Origin: Actinomyces ruminis
GTDB taxonomy: Bacteria > Actinomycetota > Actinomycetes > Actinomycetales > Actinomycetaceae
DNA length: 64,000 nucleotides
Reading direction: 5' to 3'
Assembly: GCF_002154335.2 (NCBI RefSeq)
Contig: NZ_MTPX02000035.1
Coordinates: 1-64,000 of the forward strand
Below the pieces are notes generated by a model. It saw only the letters and a program-made list of their open reading frames with translations, had not been told where the DNA came from and searched no databases. The stretch's first letter is position 1. The number at the start of each line of letters is the position of its first letter. This document shows, in pieces, positions 1 to 8,504 of the stretch. The translations under genes were made by a program, and so were the position numbers.

Positions 1-319
1 GTGCTGGCCAGTATTGATGGGCCGCACCTGCTGCGGCCCGCAGGCCTGGCCGCCGGCTTCGCCCTGGCTACCAGCTGGGGGAGTTCGGGGCGACGTCGTT
101 CCTGGCCCGGCCCCAAGGGCCGACCCTGCCCGTAGTCGTCTACCGGCTGGTCGGCTCCCCGGGCGCCCAGAATCAGGGCATGGGGCTGGCGGCCGGGGTG
201 GTGCTGGCGGTCGGCGCGGCCGCCTCATGCTCGCCTGCGAACGCCTCCAGACCCCCGCCCGCAGCCCCGCCCCCTCACCGAAACCGGCACTCGTTACACG
301 CCGAGACCGGCACCAGTAA
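1..319 (+). CDS. ABC transporter permease, C-terminal part (broken frame)
   Basis: This is the 3' end of an inner-membrane permease of the iron/thiamine/2-aminoethylphosphonate type; the 5' part lies outside the window. Pieces of one protein appear in three successive frames: GLAAGFALA near 46-70, then GEFGATSFLARP from about 75, then LMLACERLQ from about 225. The GEFGATSF stretch matches the end of the permease EAA loop region. Each change of frame equals loss of one base (near 70 and 215), so I read it as an intact gene with sequence errors. The last frame stops at 319, inside the first array of 23-bp repeats, so the final residues are encoded by repeat sequence. It is probably the partner of the ATPase at 377. 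Confidence 0.6.
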   Translation, partial: CWPVLMGRTCCGPQAWPPASPWLPAGGVRGDVVPGPAPRADPARSRLPAGRLPGRPESGHGAGGRGGAGGRRGRLMLACERLQTPARSPAPSPKPALVTRRDRHQ

Positions 320-336
320 CGCACCGAGACCGGCAC
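277..336. repeat. Three copies of a 23-bp-period repeat (reverse orientation)
   Basis: The core ACCGAGACCGGCAC occurs at 277, 300 and 323, exactly 23 bp apart. It is the reverse complement of the array at 1511-1639, so the two arrays face each other across the ATPase gene. The copies lie over the end of the permease frame and in the gap before the ATPase start. Confidence 0.9.
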
Positions 337-376
337 TAACGACGCCACCACCAGCTCACCGCTCAGGAGAACCCAC

Positions 377-1510: not shown

Positions 1511-1639
1511 CGGCCGGTCTCGGCATGTCACGAGTGCCGGTCTCGGTGCGTGACGAGTGCCGGTCTCGGTGCGTGACGAGTGCCGGTCTCGGTGCGTGAC
1601 GAGTGCCGGTCTCGGTGCGTAACGAGTGCCGGTCTCGGT
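1511..1639. repeat. Six copies of a 23-bp-period repeat (forward orientation)
   Basis: The core GTGCCGGTCTCGGT recurs at 1534, 1557, 1580, 1603 and 1626, each exactly 23 bp apart, with a diverged copy at 1511. The spacer is nearly constant (GCGTGACGA, or GCGTAACGA in one copy). The last three units are about 85 percent complementary to the array at 277-336. The stretch from 1492 to 1823 holds no other feature I can support. Confidence 0.95.
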
Positions 1640-1823
1640 GAGTGGCGCGGGTGAGGACGGTGGGTGAGAAGCTGGTCTCACAATGCTGTGGTGACTCGCG
1701 TGATCGCTATGAACGCTGCTAGCGTCACGCCCCGATGCCGACACCCGGCGTCGACGGTCGAACCGGCTCCCCGGAGCACGTCGAACGCAACCCGATCCCC
1801 GATCCCCGGAGGAACCACCTCAC

Positions 1824-1859
1824 ATGCTGGCCGCGCGAATGTGTTGTTGCTGTCGTTGA
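1824..1859 (+). CDS. Polycysteine leader peptide (MLAARMCCCCR)
   Basis: An 11-residue ORF starts at ATG 1824 behind GGAGG at 1808-1812. It ends in four consecutive Cys codons and one Arg codon (1842-1856) before TGA at 1857. An internal ATG at 1839 would give MCCCCR. It lies 72 bp upstream of the GTG start of the first permease gene of a peptide importer. Polycysteine upstream ORFs are known in mycobacteria as cysteine-responsive attenuators, where ribosome stalling on Cys codons changes downstream expression. The last Cys codons, the Arg codon and the stop fall inside a perfect hairpin (1849-1866). I infer control of the importer by charged tRNA-Cys. The ORF could be chance, but the run of Cys codons, the ribosome site and the hairpin together argue against that. 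Confidence 0.6.
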   Translation: MLAARMCCCCR

Positions 1860-1866
1860 CGACAGC
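1849..1866 (+). promoter_or_regulatory. Candidate attenuator hairpin over the polycysteine codons
   Basis: GCTGTCG (1849-1855), loop TTGA, then CGACAGC (1860-1866) form a perfect 7-bp stem. The 5' arm holds the end of the third Cys codon, the fourth Cys codon and part of the Arg codon, and the loop holds most of the stop. A ribosome stalled on the Cys codons would keep this stem open. A second perfect stem, GAGCGC/GCGCTC at 1892-1907, sits between it and the GAGGTG ribosome site (1922-1927) of the permease gene. Confidence 0.55.
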
Positions 1867-1931
1867 TTCGCACTCGTTCGCCGTCCACCCCGAGCGCCGA
1901 CGCGCTCCCCAGCCCATATGTGAGGTGCCCC

Positions 1932-2921
1932 GTGCACACGTCCACCCAGGACGCCCCTACTGTCTCCGGTTCCACGCCCGCGGAGGGCACGCCTGTCACC
2001 ACCCCGGCGCCGCTCGAGCAGACCGCCCCGTCCGCCTCGCGCTCAGTATTCAGCCGCCTGTGCTCCGACCGGGCCGCCATGATCGGTGCGGTCATCGTTG
2101 CCCTGACAACCGTCGTCGCCCTGTTTGCCCCACTGATCACGCGCGCCTTCGGCGTGGATTCCTACACCTATGACCTCGACGCACTGGACGCCTCCGGTCT
2201 ACCACTCGGCCGCTTCGGCGGTGTCAGCGCCGCCCATCCCTTCGGTGTGGAGCCGCAGACCGGTCGGGATCTGTTCGCCATCGTCGTCGAGGGCACTCGC
2301 ACCTCCTTCTCCATCGGCATGGGCGCCACCGTCCTGTCCATGGTCATAGCCATCGCCCTGGGAGTGTCCGCAGGCTACTTCGGCGGCTGGTGGGACGCGC
2401 TGGTCTCCCGCCTGACCGACATCACCCTCGGTTTCCCGCATCTGGTGTTCATGATCGCCGTGTCCGCGATTGTCCCGGCCACCGCCCCGCGCGTGCCCAT
2501 CATGATCCTCATCATCGGGATCCTGGGTTGGCCGTCGACCGCCCGCGTGCTGCGCAGCCGCGCCCTGTCCCTGCGCTCGCGCACCTACGTTGGAGCCTCC
2601 CGCGCCATGGGCGCCTCCCAGTGGCACGTGGTAACCCGGCAGATCCTGCCCGGCCTGGTGGCCACCATCATCGTGTTCACCACCCTGTCCATCCCCGGGA
2701 AGATCACCTCGGAAGCGGCCCTGTCCTTCCTCGGTATCGGGGTGAGCCCACCGACCCCCTCCTGGGGACGCACCATCGGCAGTGCCGTCACCTGGGTGAG
2801 CACCGACCCCTGGTACCTGCTGTTCCCCGGGGCGGCCCTGTTCCTTGTCACCCTCGCCTTCAACCTCTTCGGTGACGGCCTGCGTGACGCCCTCGACCCC
2901 AGGACCGGTGAGGCCCGATGA
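1932..2921 (+). CDS. Peptide/nickel-type ABC transporter permease (OppC/DppC family)
   Basis: This membrane subunit of a family-5 (di/oligopeptide, nickel) importer has about 329 residues. GTG 1932 was chosen because GAGGTG lies five bases upstream; a GTG at 1920 is also in frame but has no ribosome site. It has an N-terminal hydrophobic segment (VIVALTTVVALFAPLI), a large external segment and then five further hydrophobic helices. The cytoplasmic EAA loop (GASRAMGASQWHVVTRQILPG in outline, about residue 220) contacts the ATPase. In OppB/OppC operons this subunit usually comes second; here it is first. Its stop overlaps the next start (ATGA at 2918). Confidence 0.85.
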   Translation: MHTSTQDAPTVSGSTPAEGTPVTTPAPLEQTAPSASRSVFSRLCSDRAAMIGAVIVALTTVVALFAPLITRAFGVDSYTYDLDALDASGLPLGRFGGVSAAHPFGVEPQTGRDLFAIVVEGTRTSFSIGMGATVLSMVIAIALGVSAGYFGGWWDALVSRLTDITLGFPHLVFMIAVSAIVPATAPRVPIMILIIGILGWPSTARVLRSRALSLRSRTYVGASRAMGASQWHVVTRQILPGLVATIIVFTTLSIPGKITSEAALSFLGIGVSPPTPSWGRTIGSAVTWVSTDPWYLLFPGAALFLVTLAFNLFGDGLRDALDPRTGEAR

Positions 2922-3903
2922 ACCGTCTGCGTTTCCTTGCTTCCCGAACCGGCCAGACGCTGCTGGTGCTGGTGGTGATCGCCTTCATCACCTTCGCGGT
3001 CTTCTCGCTGTGGCCGTCCGACCCCGCCGCCCTGGCCTGCGGCAAACCCTGCACGCCGGAGAACCTCGCGCGCGCCCGCGAGTTCATGGGATACGACCAG
3101 CCTGGTACACGCAGTTCTGGAACTACCTGACCGGCATCGTCACCGGCCGCACGTTTGGCGCCGGCGCCGCCGCCATCACCTGCGCCGCCCCCTGCCTGGG
3201 CTACTCCTTCCGCCTGTCGACGCCGGTGACCGAGCTGATCGCCTCGCGGCTGCCGGTCACCGCCTCCATCGCGATCGGCGCGGCAGTGCTCTGGCTGGTC
3301 ATCGGCGTGACCGCGGGCGTCATCTCTGCGCTGCGGCGCGGCAGTCGGCTGGACCGCACCATCATGGCCGGAACCGTCCTGGGTGTATCGGCACCCTCCT
3401 ACCTGCTCGGCCTGCTGGGCATTCTCCTGTTCGGTTTCACGCTGGACATGGTGCCCGTATCCGGCTACGTGCCCCTGAGCGAGAGCCCGCTCGACTGGGC
3501 CTGGCACCTGCTCTTGCCCTGGTGCGTGCTGGCCCTGATCTCCGCCGCCGTCTACGCGCGCATGGTGCGGGGGGAGATGCTGGAGAACCTCGGCGAGGGC
3601 TACGTGCGCACGGCCCGCGCCGTGGGCCTGCCCGAGCGGCGCGTCATCGGCCGCCACGTCATGCACAACGTGTCTTTGCCGGTGGTCACCTACTTCGCCC
3701 TCGACCTGGGCGGCATGCTCGGCGGCGCCGTCATCACCGAGCGGGTCTTCTCCATGCAGGGGCTCGGCGCCCTGCTCATGGACGCGGTCAGCTCCACCGA
3801 CCTGCCCGTGATCATGGGGGTCACGCTCGTGGCTGCCGCCTTCGTGATCGTGGCGAACCTCCTGGTTGACGCCTTCGCCGCCGTCATCGACCCGCGGGTC
3901 TGA
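2918..3903 (+). CDS. Peptide/nickel-type ABC transporter permease (OppB/DppB family), one frame break
   Basis: This second membrane subunit of the importer starts at ATG 2918, overlapping the previous stop by four bases. The N-terminal part (RFLASRTGQTLLVLVVIAF) is the usual first helix of DppB proteins. The frame then shifts near 3103, where CAGCCTGGTAC should read CAGCCCTGGTAC. After that the rest of the family sequence follows, with five helices and the EAA loop around 3600-3665 (RTARAVGLPERRVIGRH). One lost C explains the break, so I treat the gene as intact. Confidence 0.85.
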
Positions 3904-3958
3904 ACCCGCCCGTTACCTCACTCGACCTGTGCCCGATTTCCACCCGAAAGGAACCACC

Positions 3959-5674
3959 ATGTTCGCACGCCCGACGACGCCTCCCGCCTCCGTCCGCAGC
4001 AACACCTCGCAGCCGGGCCCCCACGCTCTTTCCCGCCGCAGCCTGCTGATCGGCGCGGGCGCCAGCGGCCTCGCCCTGGCGCTGGCCGCCTGCGGCGCCA
4101 ACTCCCGCTCCGCGACCACCGCGACCGCCGCTACGGCCAGCGCCGGCGGCACCCTGTACGTGCTCAGCACCGACACCGACATCAACTGGGACCCCGCCAA
4201 GAGCCAGTCCCTGGCCATCACCTCCCTGGGCCTGGTGCACCGTCGTCTGACCACCTGGGACATCACCGCCGACGGCGTCCCCGCCGTCGTCCCGGACCTG
4301 GCCACCGACACCGGCACGATCTCCGAGGACGGCCTGACCTGGACCTACACCCTCAAGGAGGACATCACCTTCGAGGACGGCACCCCGATTACCTCCACCC
4401 ATATCAAGTACGGCCTCGAGCGTTCCTTCGCCTCCGCCCTGTCCGGCGGGCTCGGCTACCACAAGACCCTGCTGGCCGACGCTGCGGACTACACCGGCCC
4501 CTACGACGGCGAGCACCTGGACTCCATCGAGACCCCCGATGAGCGCACCATCATCTTCCACCTGGACCACCCCTACGGCGACTGGCCCTGGATCGTCTCG
4601 CTGCCGGCCTTCGCCCCCGTCCCCGAGGACCGCGACGACCCGGCCACCTACGCCCAGGCGCCTGTAGCCTCCGGCCCCTACCGGGTGGAGGCCTACCAGC
4701 AGGGCAACTCCGTGACCCTGGCCCGCAACGAGAGCTGGTCGGCCACCACCGACGAGGTGCGCACCGCCCTGCCGGAGCGGATCGTCTTCTCCCTGGGGCA
4801 GGATGAGGACACCGTCAGCCAGCGGCTGATCGCCGATTCCGGCGACGACCAGTACGCCTTCTCCGCCCAGCTCCTGACCGCCTCCAAGCTCGCCCAGGTC
4901 AGCGCAAACCCCGACGCATCCGCTCGCCTGGCGACCTCCGACCCCGGCCCGCTGCTGTACCTGGCAATCAACACCGAGCGAATCACCGACCCGGATGTCC
5001 GCAAGGCCATCGCCTACGCCGTCGACAAGACCGCGGTGCAGCGCGCCCTGGGCGGGGAGCTCGGCGCCGGCATCGCCACCACGTACATCACCCCGGGCAT
5101 CCCCGGCCAGGAGGACTACGACCTCTACTCCACGGACCTGGAGCAGGCCAAGGCCCTACTGGAGGGCAAAGACGTGCCCGAGCTGGTCCTGCTGTCCCAG
5201 AACAACGAGGCCCGCCTGGCGATCTCCGAGGCCGTGCAGCAGTCGCTGACCGAACTGGGGCTGAAGGTCACCATCGATCCGCAGTCCTCCGACGCCTACA
5301 CCGAGCGCGCCACCCAGGGCGACGGCTCCACCTACGACCTGACCGTGGTCTCCTGGAATCCCGACTACCCCTCAGCTAATGCCAACATCCAGCCCCTGTA
5401 CGCCTCCTCCGAGATCGGTCAGGGCGGCTACAACATCTCCCGCTACTCCAACGCCGAGGTGGACCAGCTGATTACCGAGGCTTCCCAGGAGAGCGACCCG
5501 GAGGCGGCGGCCACCAAGTGGGCAGCCCTGGACCGGCGCATCGCCGAGGACGTCCCCGCCGTGCCGCTGGTCAACCGCCGCAACTCCTTCCTGCCCGGCT
5601 CGAAGGTCACGGGGTTCTTCGTGGCGCCCTTCCCGGCCTACCCCAACTACCTGGTGCTCGGGGTGAGCCAGTAG
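3959..5674 (+). CDS. Family 5 extracellular solute-binding lipoprotein (peptide importer)
   Basis: This is the substrate receptor of the importer, 571 residues, starting at ATG 3959 behind GAAAGGA. Residues about 26-45 carry a twin-arginine-like signal (SRRSLLIGAG, a hydrophobic stretch, then the lipobox LAAC), so it should be lipid-anchored on the outer face of the membrane. The body has the SBP_bac_5 layout (GLTWTYTLKEDITFEDGTP near residue 125, YAVDKTAVQRAL near 355). The family binds di- and oligopeptides, nickel or related ligands; the sequence alone does not decide. The polycysteine leader upstream suggests a sulfur-containing ligand such as cystine peptides, which is inference. Confidence 0.85.
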   Translation: MFARPTTPPASVRSNTSQPGPHALSRRSLLIGAGASGLALALAACGANSRSATTATAATASAGGTLYVLSTDTDINWDPAKSQSLAITSLGLVHRRLTTWDITADGVPAVVPDLATDTGTISEDGLTWTYTLKEDITFEDGTPITSTHIKYGLERSFASALSGGLGYHKTLLADAADYTGPYDGEHLDSIETPDERTIIFHLDHPYGDWPWIVSLPAFAPVPEDRDDPATYAQAPVASGPYRVEAYQQGNSVTLARNESWSATTDEVRTALPERIVFSLGQDEDTVSQRLIADSGDDQYAFSAQLLTASKLAQVSANPDASARLATSDPGPLLYLAINTERITDPDVRKAIAYAVDKTAVQRALGGELGAGIATTYITPGIPGQEDYDLYSTDLEQAKALLEGKDVPELVLLSQNNEARLAISEAVQQSLTELGLKVTIDPQSSDAYTERATQGDGSTYDLTVVSWNPDYPSANANIQPLYASSEIGQGGYNISRYSNAEVDQLITEASQESDPEAAATKWAALDRRIAEDVPAVPLVNRRNSFLPGSKVTGFFVAPFPAYPNYLVLGVSQ

Positions 5675-7425
5675 TGCGCAGCCGGGAGCAGGAGCCGCGC
5701 GGGGAGCAGGAGACCGAGGCCGGCCAGACGGCGCAGACGCCCGCGCTTTCGCTGCGCGGCCTGGGCGTCTCCTTCGCCGGCACGGTGGAGCACGCCAGCG
5801 CGGACGTCGACCTGGATCTTGTGCCCGGCCGGGTGCTCGCCCTGGTCGGGGAGTCCGGCTCGGGCAAGTCCGTGACGGCGATGGGCGCGCTCGGCCTGCT
5901 GCCGGCCGCCGCCGTCGTCACCGGCTCCGCCATCGTGGCCGACCGGCGGCCGGGAGCGCCCGATGCCCCGGGAACGCAATTGGTGGGTGCGCCTCGGCAG
6001 GTGCTCGACGACGTGCGCGGGCGCCTGGTGGGGACCATCTTCCAGGAGCCGACGACGGCGCTGGACCCGCTAGAGACCATTGCCGCCCAGATCGGTGAGG
6101 CGATTCGCGCGCACGCCACCGGCCGCCCGCACCGTCGCCGAGTGCACGCCCGCGTGCTGGAGCTGCTCGGGCGCGTGGGCCTGGGGGAGGGTGAGCAGGT
6201 TGAGCGGGTTGCCCGCTCCTACCCGCACCAGCTGTCCGGCGGGCAGCTCCAGCGGGCCTGCATCGCCCTCGCCATGGCCGCCGACCCGCCGGTGCTCATC
6301 GCCGACGAGCCCACTACGGCCCTGGACGTGACCGTGCAGGCCGGCATCCTGGACCTGCTGCGAGAACTGACGGACTCCGGCGTCGCCGTCCTGCTGATCA
6401 CCCACGACATGGGCGTGGTGGCGGACGTGGCCGACGACGTCGCCGTCATGCGGCAGGGGCGAATCGTGGAGCGCGGCAGCACCCGTGAGTTGTTTGCCCA
6501 CCCGCACCATCCCTACACCCGCGCCCTCCTCAACGCGGTGCCGCGGCTGGACTCCTTGCGCACCGAGGCCGCCCCGGTCGTGGTGGAGGAGCCCAGTTCC
6601 GGTGGGCGGGAGACGGAGAACGTCGTCGAGATTCAGGGCCTGGATGTGGTCTACCGCAGTCGCCGACATCGGGTGCACGCCGTCCGCGATGTCTCCCTGC
6701 GCATCGGCGCCGGTGAGGTGCTCGGGCTGGTGGGCGAGTCCGGTTCCGGCAAATCCACCATCGCCGGCACGCTGACCGGGCTGGTGCCAATCACGGCCGG
6801 TTCGGTGCGCGTGTGCGGCGTGGAGGTGGCCGGCGCCGGGCGCCGCGCCCTACTGCCCGCGCGTCGCGCCACCGGCGTCGTCTATCAGAATCCCGCCTCC
6901 TCCCTGAACCCGAGGCGCACGGCGGGCTCGGCCATCGCCGAGCCGATGGTGGTGCACGGCGGCTACGACTCCGGTGCCCGGCGGGCGCGGGTACGTGAAC
7001 TGCTTGAGGCCGTGCGCCTGCCGGCCGATCTGGCCGACCGCTACCCGCACGAGATGAGCGGCGGGCAACGCCAGCGCGTCGCCATCGCCCGCGCCCTGGC
7101 GCTCGAACCGCGCCTGGTGATCGCCGACGAGCCGACCAGTGCCCTGGACGTGTCGGTGCAGGCGGTGGTGCTGGAGCTACTGCGCGAGCTGCAGTCCGAG
7201 CTGGGCTTTGCCTGCCTGTTCGTCTCCCACGACCTGGCTGTGGTCGACTCTCTGGCCACCCGAACCGTGGTGTTGTCGCAGGGGCGGGTCGTCGAACAGG
7301 GCACGACGGCACAGGTGCTCGCCCACCCGCGGCAGGAGTACACGCGCCGCCTGGTTGCGGCGGTACCCGTCCCCGACCCGGATGCACAGGCCCGCCGCCG
7401 CGCCGCCCGTCTGCAGGCCGCTTGA
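5674..7425 (+). CDS. Double ABC ATPase of a peptide importer (DppD-DppF fusion)
   Basis: One 583-residue protein carries both nucleotide-binding domains of the importer. Each half has a Walker A GESGSGKS (about residues 59 and 354), a signature (LSGGQ in half one, MSGGQ in half two), Walker B (VLIADEPTTALD and LVIADEPTSALD) and an H-loop. Each half is followed by the oligopeptide-transporter C-terminal extension (HPYTRALLNAVP, EYTRRLVAAVP). The GTG start at 5674 overlaps the TAG stop of the binding-protein gene, showing tight coupling. Fusion of the D and F subunits is common in Actinobacteria. Confidence 0.9.
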   Translation: MRSREQEPRGEQETEAGQTAQTPALSLRGLGVSFAGTVEHASADVDLDLVPGRVLALVGESGSGKSVTAMGALGLLPAAAVVTGSAIVADRRPGAPDAPGTQLVGAPRQVLDDVRGRLVGTIFQEPTTALDPLETIAAQIGEAIRAHATGRPHRRRVHARVLELLGRVGLGEGEQVERVARSYPHQLSGGQLQRACIALAMAADPPVLIADEPTTALDVTVQAGILDLLRELTDSGVAVLLITHDMGVVADVADDVAVMRQGRIVERGSTRELFAHPHHPYTRALLNAVPRLDSLRTEAAPVVVEEPSSGGRETENVVEIQGLDVVYRSRRHRVHAVRDVSLRIGAGEVLGLVGESGSGKSTIAGTLTGLVPITAGSVRVCGVEVAGAGRRALLPARRATGVVYQNPASSLNPRRTAGSAIAEPMVVHGGYDSGARRARVRELLEAVRLPADLADRYPHEMSGGQRQRVAIARALALEPRLVIADEPTSALDVSVQAVVLELLRELQSELGFACLFVSHDLAVVDSLATRTVVLSQGRVVEQGTTAQVLAHPRQEYTRRLVAAVPVPDPDAQARRRAARLQAA

Positions 7426-7637
7426 GCGGACGGTGACGCCGGGGCGGGGCGCGGCGTGGACCACTCGATCCGGCTGCACTCGCCGAGGTCGGTTGAAACG
7501 GCTCACCCTGGCTCAACAGTGCGGTAATCTCACAATGTGGGTTCGCCTCCGGTGAAGGGGCTGACGGGAGGCGGGCACAGGGGTCACCATTGGGTTGAGC
7601 CCATATGACGTTCGTTTCCATGCTCCGGGAGGCACCC

Positions 7638-8504
7638 ATGGCCCTTGCCCACTCGCACCGCTTCACTGAAGGTGATCTGCCAGTAGAGGCCGGCCGTTAC
7701 CGCCTGGTCGCCTCCGGCTCCTGCCCTTGGAGCCGCCGCGTCCTCATCGCCCGCCGGCTGCTGGGCCTCACGGAGGCGCTCCCCGTCTCCTGGAGCTACG
7801 GTCGCGGCGCCGACGGCTTCTGGGAACTGACCGGCCCCGACGGCGAACCCGGCCCCGACCCGGCCCTGAATGGCGCCACCTCGATCGCCGAGGTCTACGC
7901 GGGCACCCCCGGCTACACCCCGCCGCCCACGGTCCCGGCGCTGGTGGACACCACCACCGGGCACGTCGTCGTCGACGACTCAGGGGACCTGCTCTTCGAC
8001 CTGGCCACCGCATGGAAGCCCCTGCACCGCGCCGGCGCCCCCGACCTGTACCCCCTGGATCGGCGCAACTCCACCGACGCCTGGGACAAGTGGATCGGCG
8101 AGCACATCAACCGGGCGCACGCCACCGCCACCCACTCCAAGAACACCGAGGAGGCCACGGCGTCCGCCAACGGTGTACTGGTGGCCTTCGACGTCGTCGA
8201 CACGCTGCTGGCCCGCGCCACCAAGATGGAGGCCTCCCGTGAGGCGGCCCTGACCGTGCAGGACGTGCCGCCGCTGTCCGCCGTGGTCTCCGTGGAGCAG
8301 TTCCTGTGCGGCGCCGCCCCCACCGGCAGCGACATCCGTCTGTTCACCACCGTGCAGGCCTACGAGTACGGCGGGCGCGCCTACTACCCCGGCGGCGAGG
8401 CGCCGTCAATCGCCTTCTGGCCGGCGCTCGCCCGCTGGTTCCGGGCACTGGAGGGGCGCGCCGGCTGGGTCGGCACCGAGGAGCGCAGCGCGCTCGGGCT
8501 GTAA
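7638..8504 (+). CDS. Glutathionyl-hydroquinone reductase-like protein (Xi-class GST/ECM4 family)
   Basis: A 288-residue cytosolic enzyme of the Xi-class glutathione transferase family, which reduces glutathionyl- or other thiol-conjugated hydroquinones. The thioredoxin-like N-terminal half holds the catalytic SGSCPWSRR (about residues 26-34; Cys-Pro-Trp is diagnostic), and the all-helical GST C-terminal half follows. ATG 7638 was chosen over 7605 because GGGAGG ends five bases before it. Actinobacteria usually make mycothiol rather than glutathione, so the real thiol partner is open. It follows the putative cysteine-linked importer by about 210 bp, which may or may not be meaningful. Confidence 0.8.
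   Translation: MALAHSHRFTEGDLPVEAGRYRLVASGSCPWSRRVLIARRLLGLTEALPVSWSYGRGADGFWELTGPDGEPGPDPALNGATSIAEVYAGTPGYTPPPTVPALVDTTTGHVVVDDSGDLLFDLATAWKPLHRAGAPDLYPLDRRNSTDAWDKWIGEHINRAHATATHSKNTEEATASANGVLVAFDVVDTLLARATKMEASREAALTVQDVPPLSAVVSVEQFLCGAAPTGSDIRLFTTVQAYEYGGRAYYPGGEAPSIAFWPALARWFRALEGRAGWVGTEERSALGL

Follow-up and report, generated by a model that had tools for sequence, protein, structure and literature searches.

In the first 64,000 nucleotides of contig NZ_MTPX02000035.1 of Actinomyces ruminis (the whole stretch analysed, hereafter the window), an 11-codon open reading frame (ORF) with four consecutive Cys codons just before its stop lies upstream of the genes for a family-5 peptide ATP-binding cassette (ABC) importer. 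Our results, drawn from sequence comparison and computed folds, indicate that this leader probably controls translation of the importer by ribosome-mediated attenuation, with the supply of charged tRNA-Cys as its cue. Leaders of this kind before close orthologues of the importer's permease gene are called class 1 here, those before a polar-amino-acid importer class 2 and those before cysK class 3. Together they probably belong to one regulon that spans three or more operons (those of the peptide importer, the amino-acid importer and cysK); its combination with the one-shot latch described below is proposed only tentatively.

Results

A conserved cysteine leader precedes the permease gene

The elements around the leader are the following.

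1808-1812, + strand: Shine-Dalgarno (SD) sequence of the leader, GGAGG, read from the sequence; by eye, a purine-rich site also precedes the orthologous leaders
1824-1859, + strand: leader ORF, MLAARMCCCCR and stop, read from the sequence and its orthologues
1921-1927, + strand: SD region of the permease, UGAGGUG, read from the sequence, with GAGG invariant in the class 1 alignment
1932-2921, + strand: OppC/DppC-type permease gene with a GTG start (Pfam BPD_transp_1 and OppC_N; orthologues)

The leader reads ATG CTG GCC GCG CGA ATG TGT TGT TGC TGT CGT TGA (1824-1859), with Cys codons 7 to 10 at 1842-1853. The four consecutive Cys codons, the SD sequence, a 7-bp hairpin, a second hairpin and the permease GTG had been pointed out in a preliminary description of the region, and all of them can be read in the sequence; helices P1 and P0, presented below, were not part of that description. 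None of 200 dinucleotide shuffles of the window produced a short ORF with four consecutive Cys codons (Cys4) and an SD sequence, and without the SD demand the shuffles held on average 0.005 short Cys4 ORFs, against one in the window. The Cys4 string alone is not enriched genome-wide (27 matches, against 47 for the reversed control), so that the evidence lies in context and conservation and not in the string.

Conservation was followed in a sample of 49 genomes of the genus. The permease search gave a match in all 49, with at least 70% identity in 24 (A. ruminis included), and in the remaining 25 it found permease paralogues only (at most 42% identity among the matches listed). An 11-codon ATG leader precedes the permease in 24/24 close orthologues and ends 48-77 nt before the permease start. 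Cys is present at codon -2 (codon 10) in 24/24 of these class 1 leaders, at codon -3 in 18/24, and at codons -4 and -5 in 19/24 each. The alignment with relatives suggested in the preliminary description therefore bore out the conservation of both leader length and Cys codons. The number of Cys per leader is two (n=1), three (n=9), four (n=9) or five (n=5), which makes these short leaders rich in one amino acid near the stop, and at several positions Cys is replaced by Arg, Ser, Trp, Tyr, Gly or Thr. Codons -5 and -4, which lie between the helix arms, use both TGT and TGC, an exchange that fits selection on the amino acid.

The leader RNA folds into helices that bury both start regions

The RNA from 1800 to 1935 folds at -63.8 kcal/mol, against -43.04 (s.d. 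3.45) for shuffled sequences (z -6.0; 0/200 as low). Its helices are placed as follows.

1816-1830, + strand: 5′ arm of helix P0, CACCUCACAUGCUGG, which contains the leader AUG (folds, clade covariation)
1835-1841, + strand: 5′ arm of helix P1, GCGAAUG, codons 4-6 (folds, alignments)
1849-1855 and 1860-1866, + strand: hairpin P2, GCUGUCG/CGACAGC (folds, alignments)
1875-1881, + strand: 3′ arm of helix P1, CGUUCGC (folds, alignments)
1892-1897 and 1902-1907, + strand: hairpin P3, GAGCGC/GCGCUC (RNAalifold)
1909-1913 and 1918-1927, + strand: 3′ arm of helix P0, CCAGC and AUGUGAGGUG, which contains the permease SD (folds, clade covariation)

P1 encloses P2. The 5′ arm of P2 begins with the last two bases of Cys codon 9, spans Cys codon 10 and reaches into the Arg codon; the stop codon falls in the hairpin loop. 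Conserved Arg codons sit in the P1 and P2 arms, and the first Cys codons of the run occupy the unpaired stretch between them. In P0, CACCUCACAU plus GCUGG (1816-1830) pairs with CCAGC plus AUGUGAGGUG (1909-1927), and the same helix is obtained for folds starting at 1700, 1732 and 1800. RNAalifold on the 24 class 1 leaders returned P1 (GCGAAUG/CAUUCGC), P2 (GCUGUCG/CGACAGC) and P3 (GAGCG/CGCUC), together with a short helix that closes the structure by joining leader codons 2-3 to the permease SD; in single-sequence folds this closing helix is longer and clade-specific in many class 1 leaders. Five pairs of P3 are retained in 22-23 of the 24 leaders, and P3 is absent in L054. A known Rfam element was rejected, as Rfam 15 gave no match for the whole window at the gathering threshold or for 1650-2000 at E≤1.

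The covariation of P0 was assessed by pairing the upstream arm region of each species with the downstream region of every other species. The arms pair better within than between clades, with P=0.00035 when clades were drawn by eye and P=0.0001 (14 clades), 0.00005 (11 clades) and 0.00125 (6 clades) when they were defined by permease identity. The equivalent test in class 2 was negative (P=0.69, 16 clades) and serves as a negative control. The 7-bp hairpin of the preliminary description (P2) is real, but it is probably not the switch itself, for which P0, hiding the permease SD, is the stronger candidate.

A ribosome at the first Cys codon is computed to ease opening of the permease SD in the window

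The ribosome was modelled as 15 nt on each side of the P-site base, and the opened region as the permease SD and start, from -15 to +3. In the window, opening costs 16.3 kcal/mol in the free RNA, 10.3 with the A site at codon 7 (the first Cys codon) and again 16.3 with the ribosome at the stop. With shuffled flanks the free cost is 9.65 ± 1.85 (0/100 as high as observed), and the gain on stalling, 6.1 in the window, falls to -0.34 ± 1.65 (0/100). L037, the nearest relative of the window, yields 13.5 at the stop and 7.9 at the first Cys codon, with the free cost reached by 3/100 shuffles and the gain by 0/100. When the footprint was masked in all 24 class 1 leaders, the stalled state cost less than the free one in 16. 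Folding with a ribosome on the Cys codons, a check proposed at the outset, therefore makes the structure depend on ribosome position, and opens the SD, in the window and in L037; in other clades the computed effect is weaker or absent. According to these models, the SD-opening step appears well supported for the window, moderately so for class 1, and unsupported for class 2.

Two further cysteine leaders are present in the same genome

Both the Cys4 pattern and R1, a P1/P2 covariance model built without class 2, found a second leader in the A. ruminis genome, MFMRMCCCCCR (G000:C5:42990-43049; L067 3991-4050), encoded by GTG TTC ATG CGA ATG TGT TGC TGT TGC TGT CGT TGA. A polar-amino-acid ABC operon follows, its ATPase gene starting 46 nt downstream. 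A class 2 leader, with P1/P2 that are in part imperfect, precedes the same four genes in 33/49 genomes, A. ruminis included; if the GTG or ATG at a constant position is taken as the start, 32/33 of these leaders have 11 codons, and codons -2, -4 and -5 are Cys in 33/33. The permeases of this operon rank first and second on the cystine permease model, below its cut-off, and the binding protein scores best on models for basic and acidic amino acids. Two R1 matches were set aside as chance, namely L130 and L129 (MPMRVCCCR), downstream of which no transporter was matched. As a separate observation, a different recurring motif near TGTGANNATCNTCCCA is found about 44-47 nt before a -10-like element in part of class 2 (for example L124, L126 and L128).

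The class 3 leader, often M..MS.CCCQCR, precedes cysK in 10 of the 12 genomes checked among the 49, A. ruminis included; none was found at L290 and L294. In A. ruminis it reads MTAKSLMRVMSLCCCQCR (L284 581-637; G000:C77), and the class 3 leader RNA has conserved hairpins of its own, different from P1/P2. The presence of a Cys leader before cysK in the same genome makes cysteine the natural candidate for the signal. A search of this genome for endings of the form Cys-x-Cys-Arg-stop gave 10 matches, namely the three leaders and seven judged to be non-leaders. The cysK gene of this genome (G000:C77:28726-29617) itself gave a match split in two, one part containing a stop, which is not the case in most relatives; the assembly is 82.6% complete, and small assembly errors are possible.

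Helix conservation and opening costs bearing on the proposed switch

The attenuator reading has to be set against several observations that count against it. At the level of the leader, L057 has just two Cys and six Arg. At the level of the helices, P1/P2 in class 1 alone are 98.7% paired with little covariation, a value reached by 27/500 shuffles. Covariation in favour of P1/P2 did emerge when 47 leaders of both classes were combined, with 21 double-changed cells against 5.0 ± 1.8 in shuffles (0/500), in an alignment that was fitted to the model and so leans to structure, and from which the ten weakest class 2 leaders (L120-L128, L131) and five antisense matches, out of 62 R1 matches, were left out. 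Taking the two classes together, A-U occupies P1 position 4 in 33 leaders and G-C in 19, and P2 position 1 is C-G in 50 and G-C in 6. With arms chosen pairwise as best complements, which also leans to structure, all seven P1 pairs form in 22/24 class 1 leaders and in just 19/33 class 2 leaders, where P2 mostly has five of six pairs. RNAalifold on class 2 alone recovered no P1 and four pairs of P2, probably owing to misalignment of the variable loop by MAFFT.

The computed ribosome states are also less favourable when looked at closely. In the window, the opening cost is 5.7-5.9 kcal/mol with the A site at codons 2-6 and 13.4-14.2 at codons 8-11, so that the SD opens most readily while the ribosome is still short of the Cys run, and most of the effect has gone by codon 8. 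A clear opening is computed in the window and L037 only: of the five leaders compared with shuffles, the other three (L041, L043 and L047) lie inside the null distribution or close to it, with the free cost and the gain reached by 13 and 6, 11 and 5, and 7 and 25 of 100 shuffles, respectively. With the footprint masked, the class 1 mean is 11.66 for the free RNA, 10.29 for the stalled state and 11.46 at the stop. Masking the entire 5′ sequence gives 8.74 stalled (lower in 20/24) and 8.30 at the stop; this variant thus fails to distinguish a stalled ribosome from a terminating one. In class 2, stalling leaves the cost unmoved (8.96 to 8.87, lower in 14/33). With the cost unchanged and clade covariation absent, SD sequestration was rejected as the class 2 mechanism.

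Promoter region

Two elements were located upstream of the leader.

1665-1680, no strand assigned: palindrome TGAGA-N6-TCTCA, a putative regulator site (conservation in class 1 orthologues)
1717-1725, + strand: extended -10-like element TGCTAGCGT, the putative promoter of a leadered mRNA (TGCTANNST pattern in orthologues)

The -10-like element lies about 100 nt upstream of the leader, and TGCTANNST is found within 260 nt upstream in 21/24 class 1 orthologues; the sigma-70 consensus had no match in 1500-2000. Together with the leader SD, this element argues for a leadered mRNA. The palindrome has no mismatch in 10/24 class 1 orthologues and at most one in 13/24, and in all 13 it stands 35-36 nt before the -10-like element (36 nt in the window). 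The reversed control of the pattern gave no site with fewer than three mismatches. This conservation suggests that an additional protein regulator may act on the operon. As a regulon-wide signal the palindrome was rejected, being the sole site of its pattern in the genome and having no counterpart with fewer than two mismatches in any class 2 upstream region.

Further upstream, a 23-bp unit, GCCGGTCTCGGTGCGTGACGAGT, is repeated in tandem in 5.7 copies (window 1513-1644), a related array of 2.7 copies lies on the opposite strand (window 276-338), and pieces resembling the unit occur at about 40 places in the genome.

Spread of the leader

The R2 searches for the P1/P2 module used Infernal's stricter filters and are blind to other shapes of Cys leader, such as class 3. 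At E 0.01, R2 matched in 42/49 Actinomyces genomes, a count that includes unexamined matches in G026, G030 and G039, and in 0/164 genomes from 35 other genera of the family; at E 0.001, A. ruminis was its only match in a class-wide sample of 394 genomes from 138 genera. Among more distant permeases, eight OppC homologues from five other genera (45-55% identity) had no leader of this kind in the 550 nt scanned upstream. In 4/8, ORFs of at most 35 codons with at least two Cys lie 249-538 nt away (for example MLCCSRH and MWLRGITSCCR); these ORFs contain no run of three Cys and were judged unrelated.

A pattern scan of named genomes found at least 16 Actinomyces among the matches listed (80 of 120 stretches); the other matches listed, which have no RM-CCC context and by eye no SD, were taken as chance. 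Among the matches listed, MCCCxC(R/H/P/L)* recurs in Rhizobiaceae (L147, L157, L189, L215, L221), Oxalobacteraceae (L161, L180, L222, L223) and Pelagibacteraceae (L159, L166, L216); these probably lie inside other genes and have no visible SD.

The importer operon and its neighbours

The permease gene is followed by the genes below.

2918-3903, + strand: second permease, OppB type, with its frame broken in the window (Pfam BPD_transp_1 on the open part)
3866-5674, + strand: ORF of a substrate-binding protein of family 5, likely ATG at 3959 (Pfam SBP_bac_5, E 1e-64)
5518-7425, + strand: fused double ABC ATPase, the actual start probably more internal (Pfam ABC_tran twice, oligo_HPY)
7605-8504, + strand: GST/glutathionyl-hydroquinone-reductase-like gene (Pfam GST_N_2 above and GST_C_2 just below cut-off; PDB 4pts, E 4.1e-26)

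The best PDB match of the binding protein is 2wok (E 1.1e-69), OppA2, an oligopeptide-binding protein of clavulanic acid biosynthesis. The break in the OppB-type permease affects the first third of the gene, the ATG being in another frame than the remainder; the gene is open over 328-340 amino acids in the five relatives examined, and the broken frame may be genuine or stem from an assembly error. The gene for a thiol-transferase-like enzyme after the importer had been taken to fit sulfur metabolism. It is indeed found within the stretch behind the operon in 9/12 relatives checked, but it lies about 180 nt from the ATPase gene, which weakens the link; a tie to the thiol chemistry of the imported peptide is possible.

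Discussion

Proposed mechanism

We propose that translation of the leader would follow directly on its transcription. If cysteine is plentiful, the ribosome would pass the Cys codons, stop at UGA and leave, whereupon P1, P2, P3 and the closing helix P0 would fold and bury the permease SD together with the start region of the leader. With the starts buried, synthesis of the importer would be off and the RNA would have locked itself. When cysteine is short, the ribosome would be expected to halt at the first Cys codon, where it would sit on the inner half of P0 and on the 5′ arm of both P1 and P2. P0 would then be weakened, the SD freed and the importer made, which may bring in cysteine-containing or cystine-type peptides. 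In a bolder form of the model, the start region of the leader itself would act as the anti-SD of the importer, and the first ribosome on each transcript would decide for good whether the importer is open or both starts are closed. This whole, in which a cysteine regulon spanning three or more operons runs protein-free and has a one-shot RNA latch in its peptide-importer branch, we regard as possible, at somewhat less than an even chance.

Cysteine auxotrophy was rejected as the reason for such a system, given that cysE and cysK each score above cut-off in 47/49 genomes. These bacteria can probably make cysteine, and the system would then balance uptake and synthesis.

Alternative explanations

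The alternative that survives best keeps the signal and changes the output: the stalled ribosome would control Rho-dependent termination in the spacer between leader and permease, and not translation initiation. There is no intrinsic terminator-like site in 1500-2000, on which ground attenuation by an intrinsic terminator (of the trp or uORFC-8-2 type) was rejected, and which leaves room for Rho. For Mycobacterium, P. acnes and B. longum, Rho was proposed to act at Cys leaders in the available portion of Seliverstov 2005 (PMC1262725). Class 2, which lacks SD sequestration by two tests, may also use another output. Yet P0 covers the permease SD and co-varies across class 1 clades, and the spacer, at just 48-77 nt, is short and partly structured. 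Overall, we consider Rho-dependent control unlikely.

The signal itself could be different if the Cys-rich nascent peptide sensed metal, redox or thiol state instead of charged tRNA-Cys. Family-5 importers do include nickel and metallophore systems, and the binding protein shows a weak NikA-type similarity, far below cut-off. However, an 11-residue peptide stays within the ribosome tunnel, the Cys codons are exchanged for six other residues in class 1, and a differently built Cys leader before cysK fits amino-acid supply better, making this explanation very improbable. Still less probable is that the leader reports general translation stress or the supply of arginine. Arg is the last sense codon in 23/24 class 1 and 27/33 class 2 leaders, and each class 1 leader has 2-6 Arg, but the position of the conserved Arg codons in the P1/P2 arms is explicable by pairing, whereas the first Cys codons are unpaired and the three Cys positions of class 2 are invariant. 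That the leader is a functionless chance ORF, for which the unenriched Cys4 string could be invoked, is practically excluded by the shuffles, the covariation, the two further Cys leaders of the genome and, above all, conservation in 24/24 orthologues that are not recent copies, the permease protein differing by up to 30%.

Relation to known leaders

In ermC-type translational attenuators, pairing of the main gene's SD depends on a ribosome in the leader, the cue being an antibiotic. The attenuator proposed for Actinomyces shares this dependence but differs in that its cue would be amino-acid supply and its anti-SD arm the start region of the leader itself. In Mycobacterium smegmatis, Canestrari et al. 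are said to have described in 2020 several operons per genome in which a stalled ribosome opens a downstream ribosome site. The Actinomyces system shares with these a short upstream ORF with consecutive Cys codons and would work like them. It differs in its targets, which include importers besides cysK, in a P1/P2 module common to two unrelated transporter operons, and in P0, which pairs two start regions. Moreover, the M. smegmatis leaders are leaderless, the ORF standing at the 5′ end of the mRNA, while the Actinomyces leader has an SD of its own and, about 100 nt before it, a putative promoter, and is judged by sequence to lie on a leadered mRNA. The polycysteine leaderless short ORFs of M. 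smegmatis are cited in the available portions of PMC9094748, PMC13236596 and PMC9031893.

Cys-run leaders before the cys operons of Mycobacterium and P. acnes and before cbs of B. longum were described by Seliverstov 2005, with no conserved terminator hairpins at the Mycobacterium leaders (available portion of PMC1262725). They share with ours the Cys codons close to the leader stop and the actinobacterial host, but in that portion they concern cys and cbs operons only; the genomes used there included A. naeslundii, and it reports no Cys leader of Actinomyces (PMC1262725). Cysteine-rich upstream ORFs before cysA2, Rv0485 and nirA appear in the portion of Shell 2015 at hand. The uORFC-8-2 motif before cysS in Rhodobacterales, as given in the available portion of PMC8632094, likewise has tandem Cys codons in a structured leader, but differs in its intrinsic terminator, its aminoacyl-tRNA synthetase target and its phylum. 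Nothing on such leaders stands in the available portions of PMC6429828 and PMC11133741, and a literature search over titles and the beginnings of abstracts, with most subscription papers outside it, found no cysteine leader in Actinomyces.

Cysteine leaders were thus known before cysteine-synthesis operons in mycobacteria and a few other Actinobacteria, and before cysS in Rhodobacterales. Actinomyces, a genus of the mouth and gut, appears to use them for uptake besides synthesis. The proposed switch is small and defined, with covarying helices, and predicts that both importers serve the supply of sulfur amino acids. If true, it would represent a ribosome-run regulon outside the mycobacteria.

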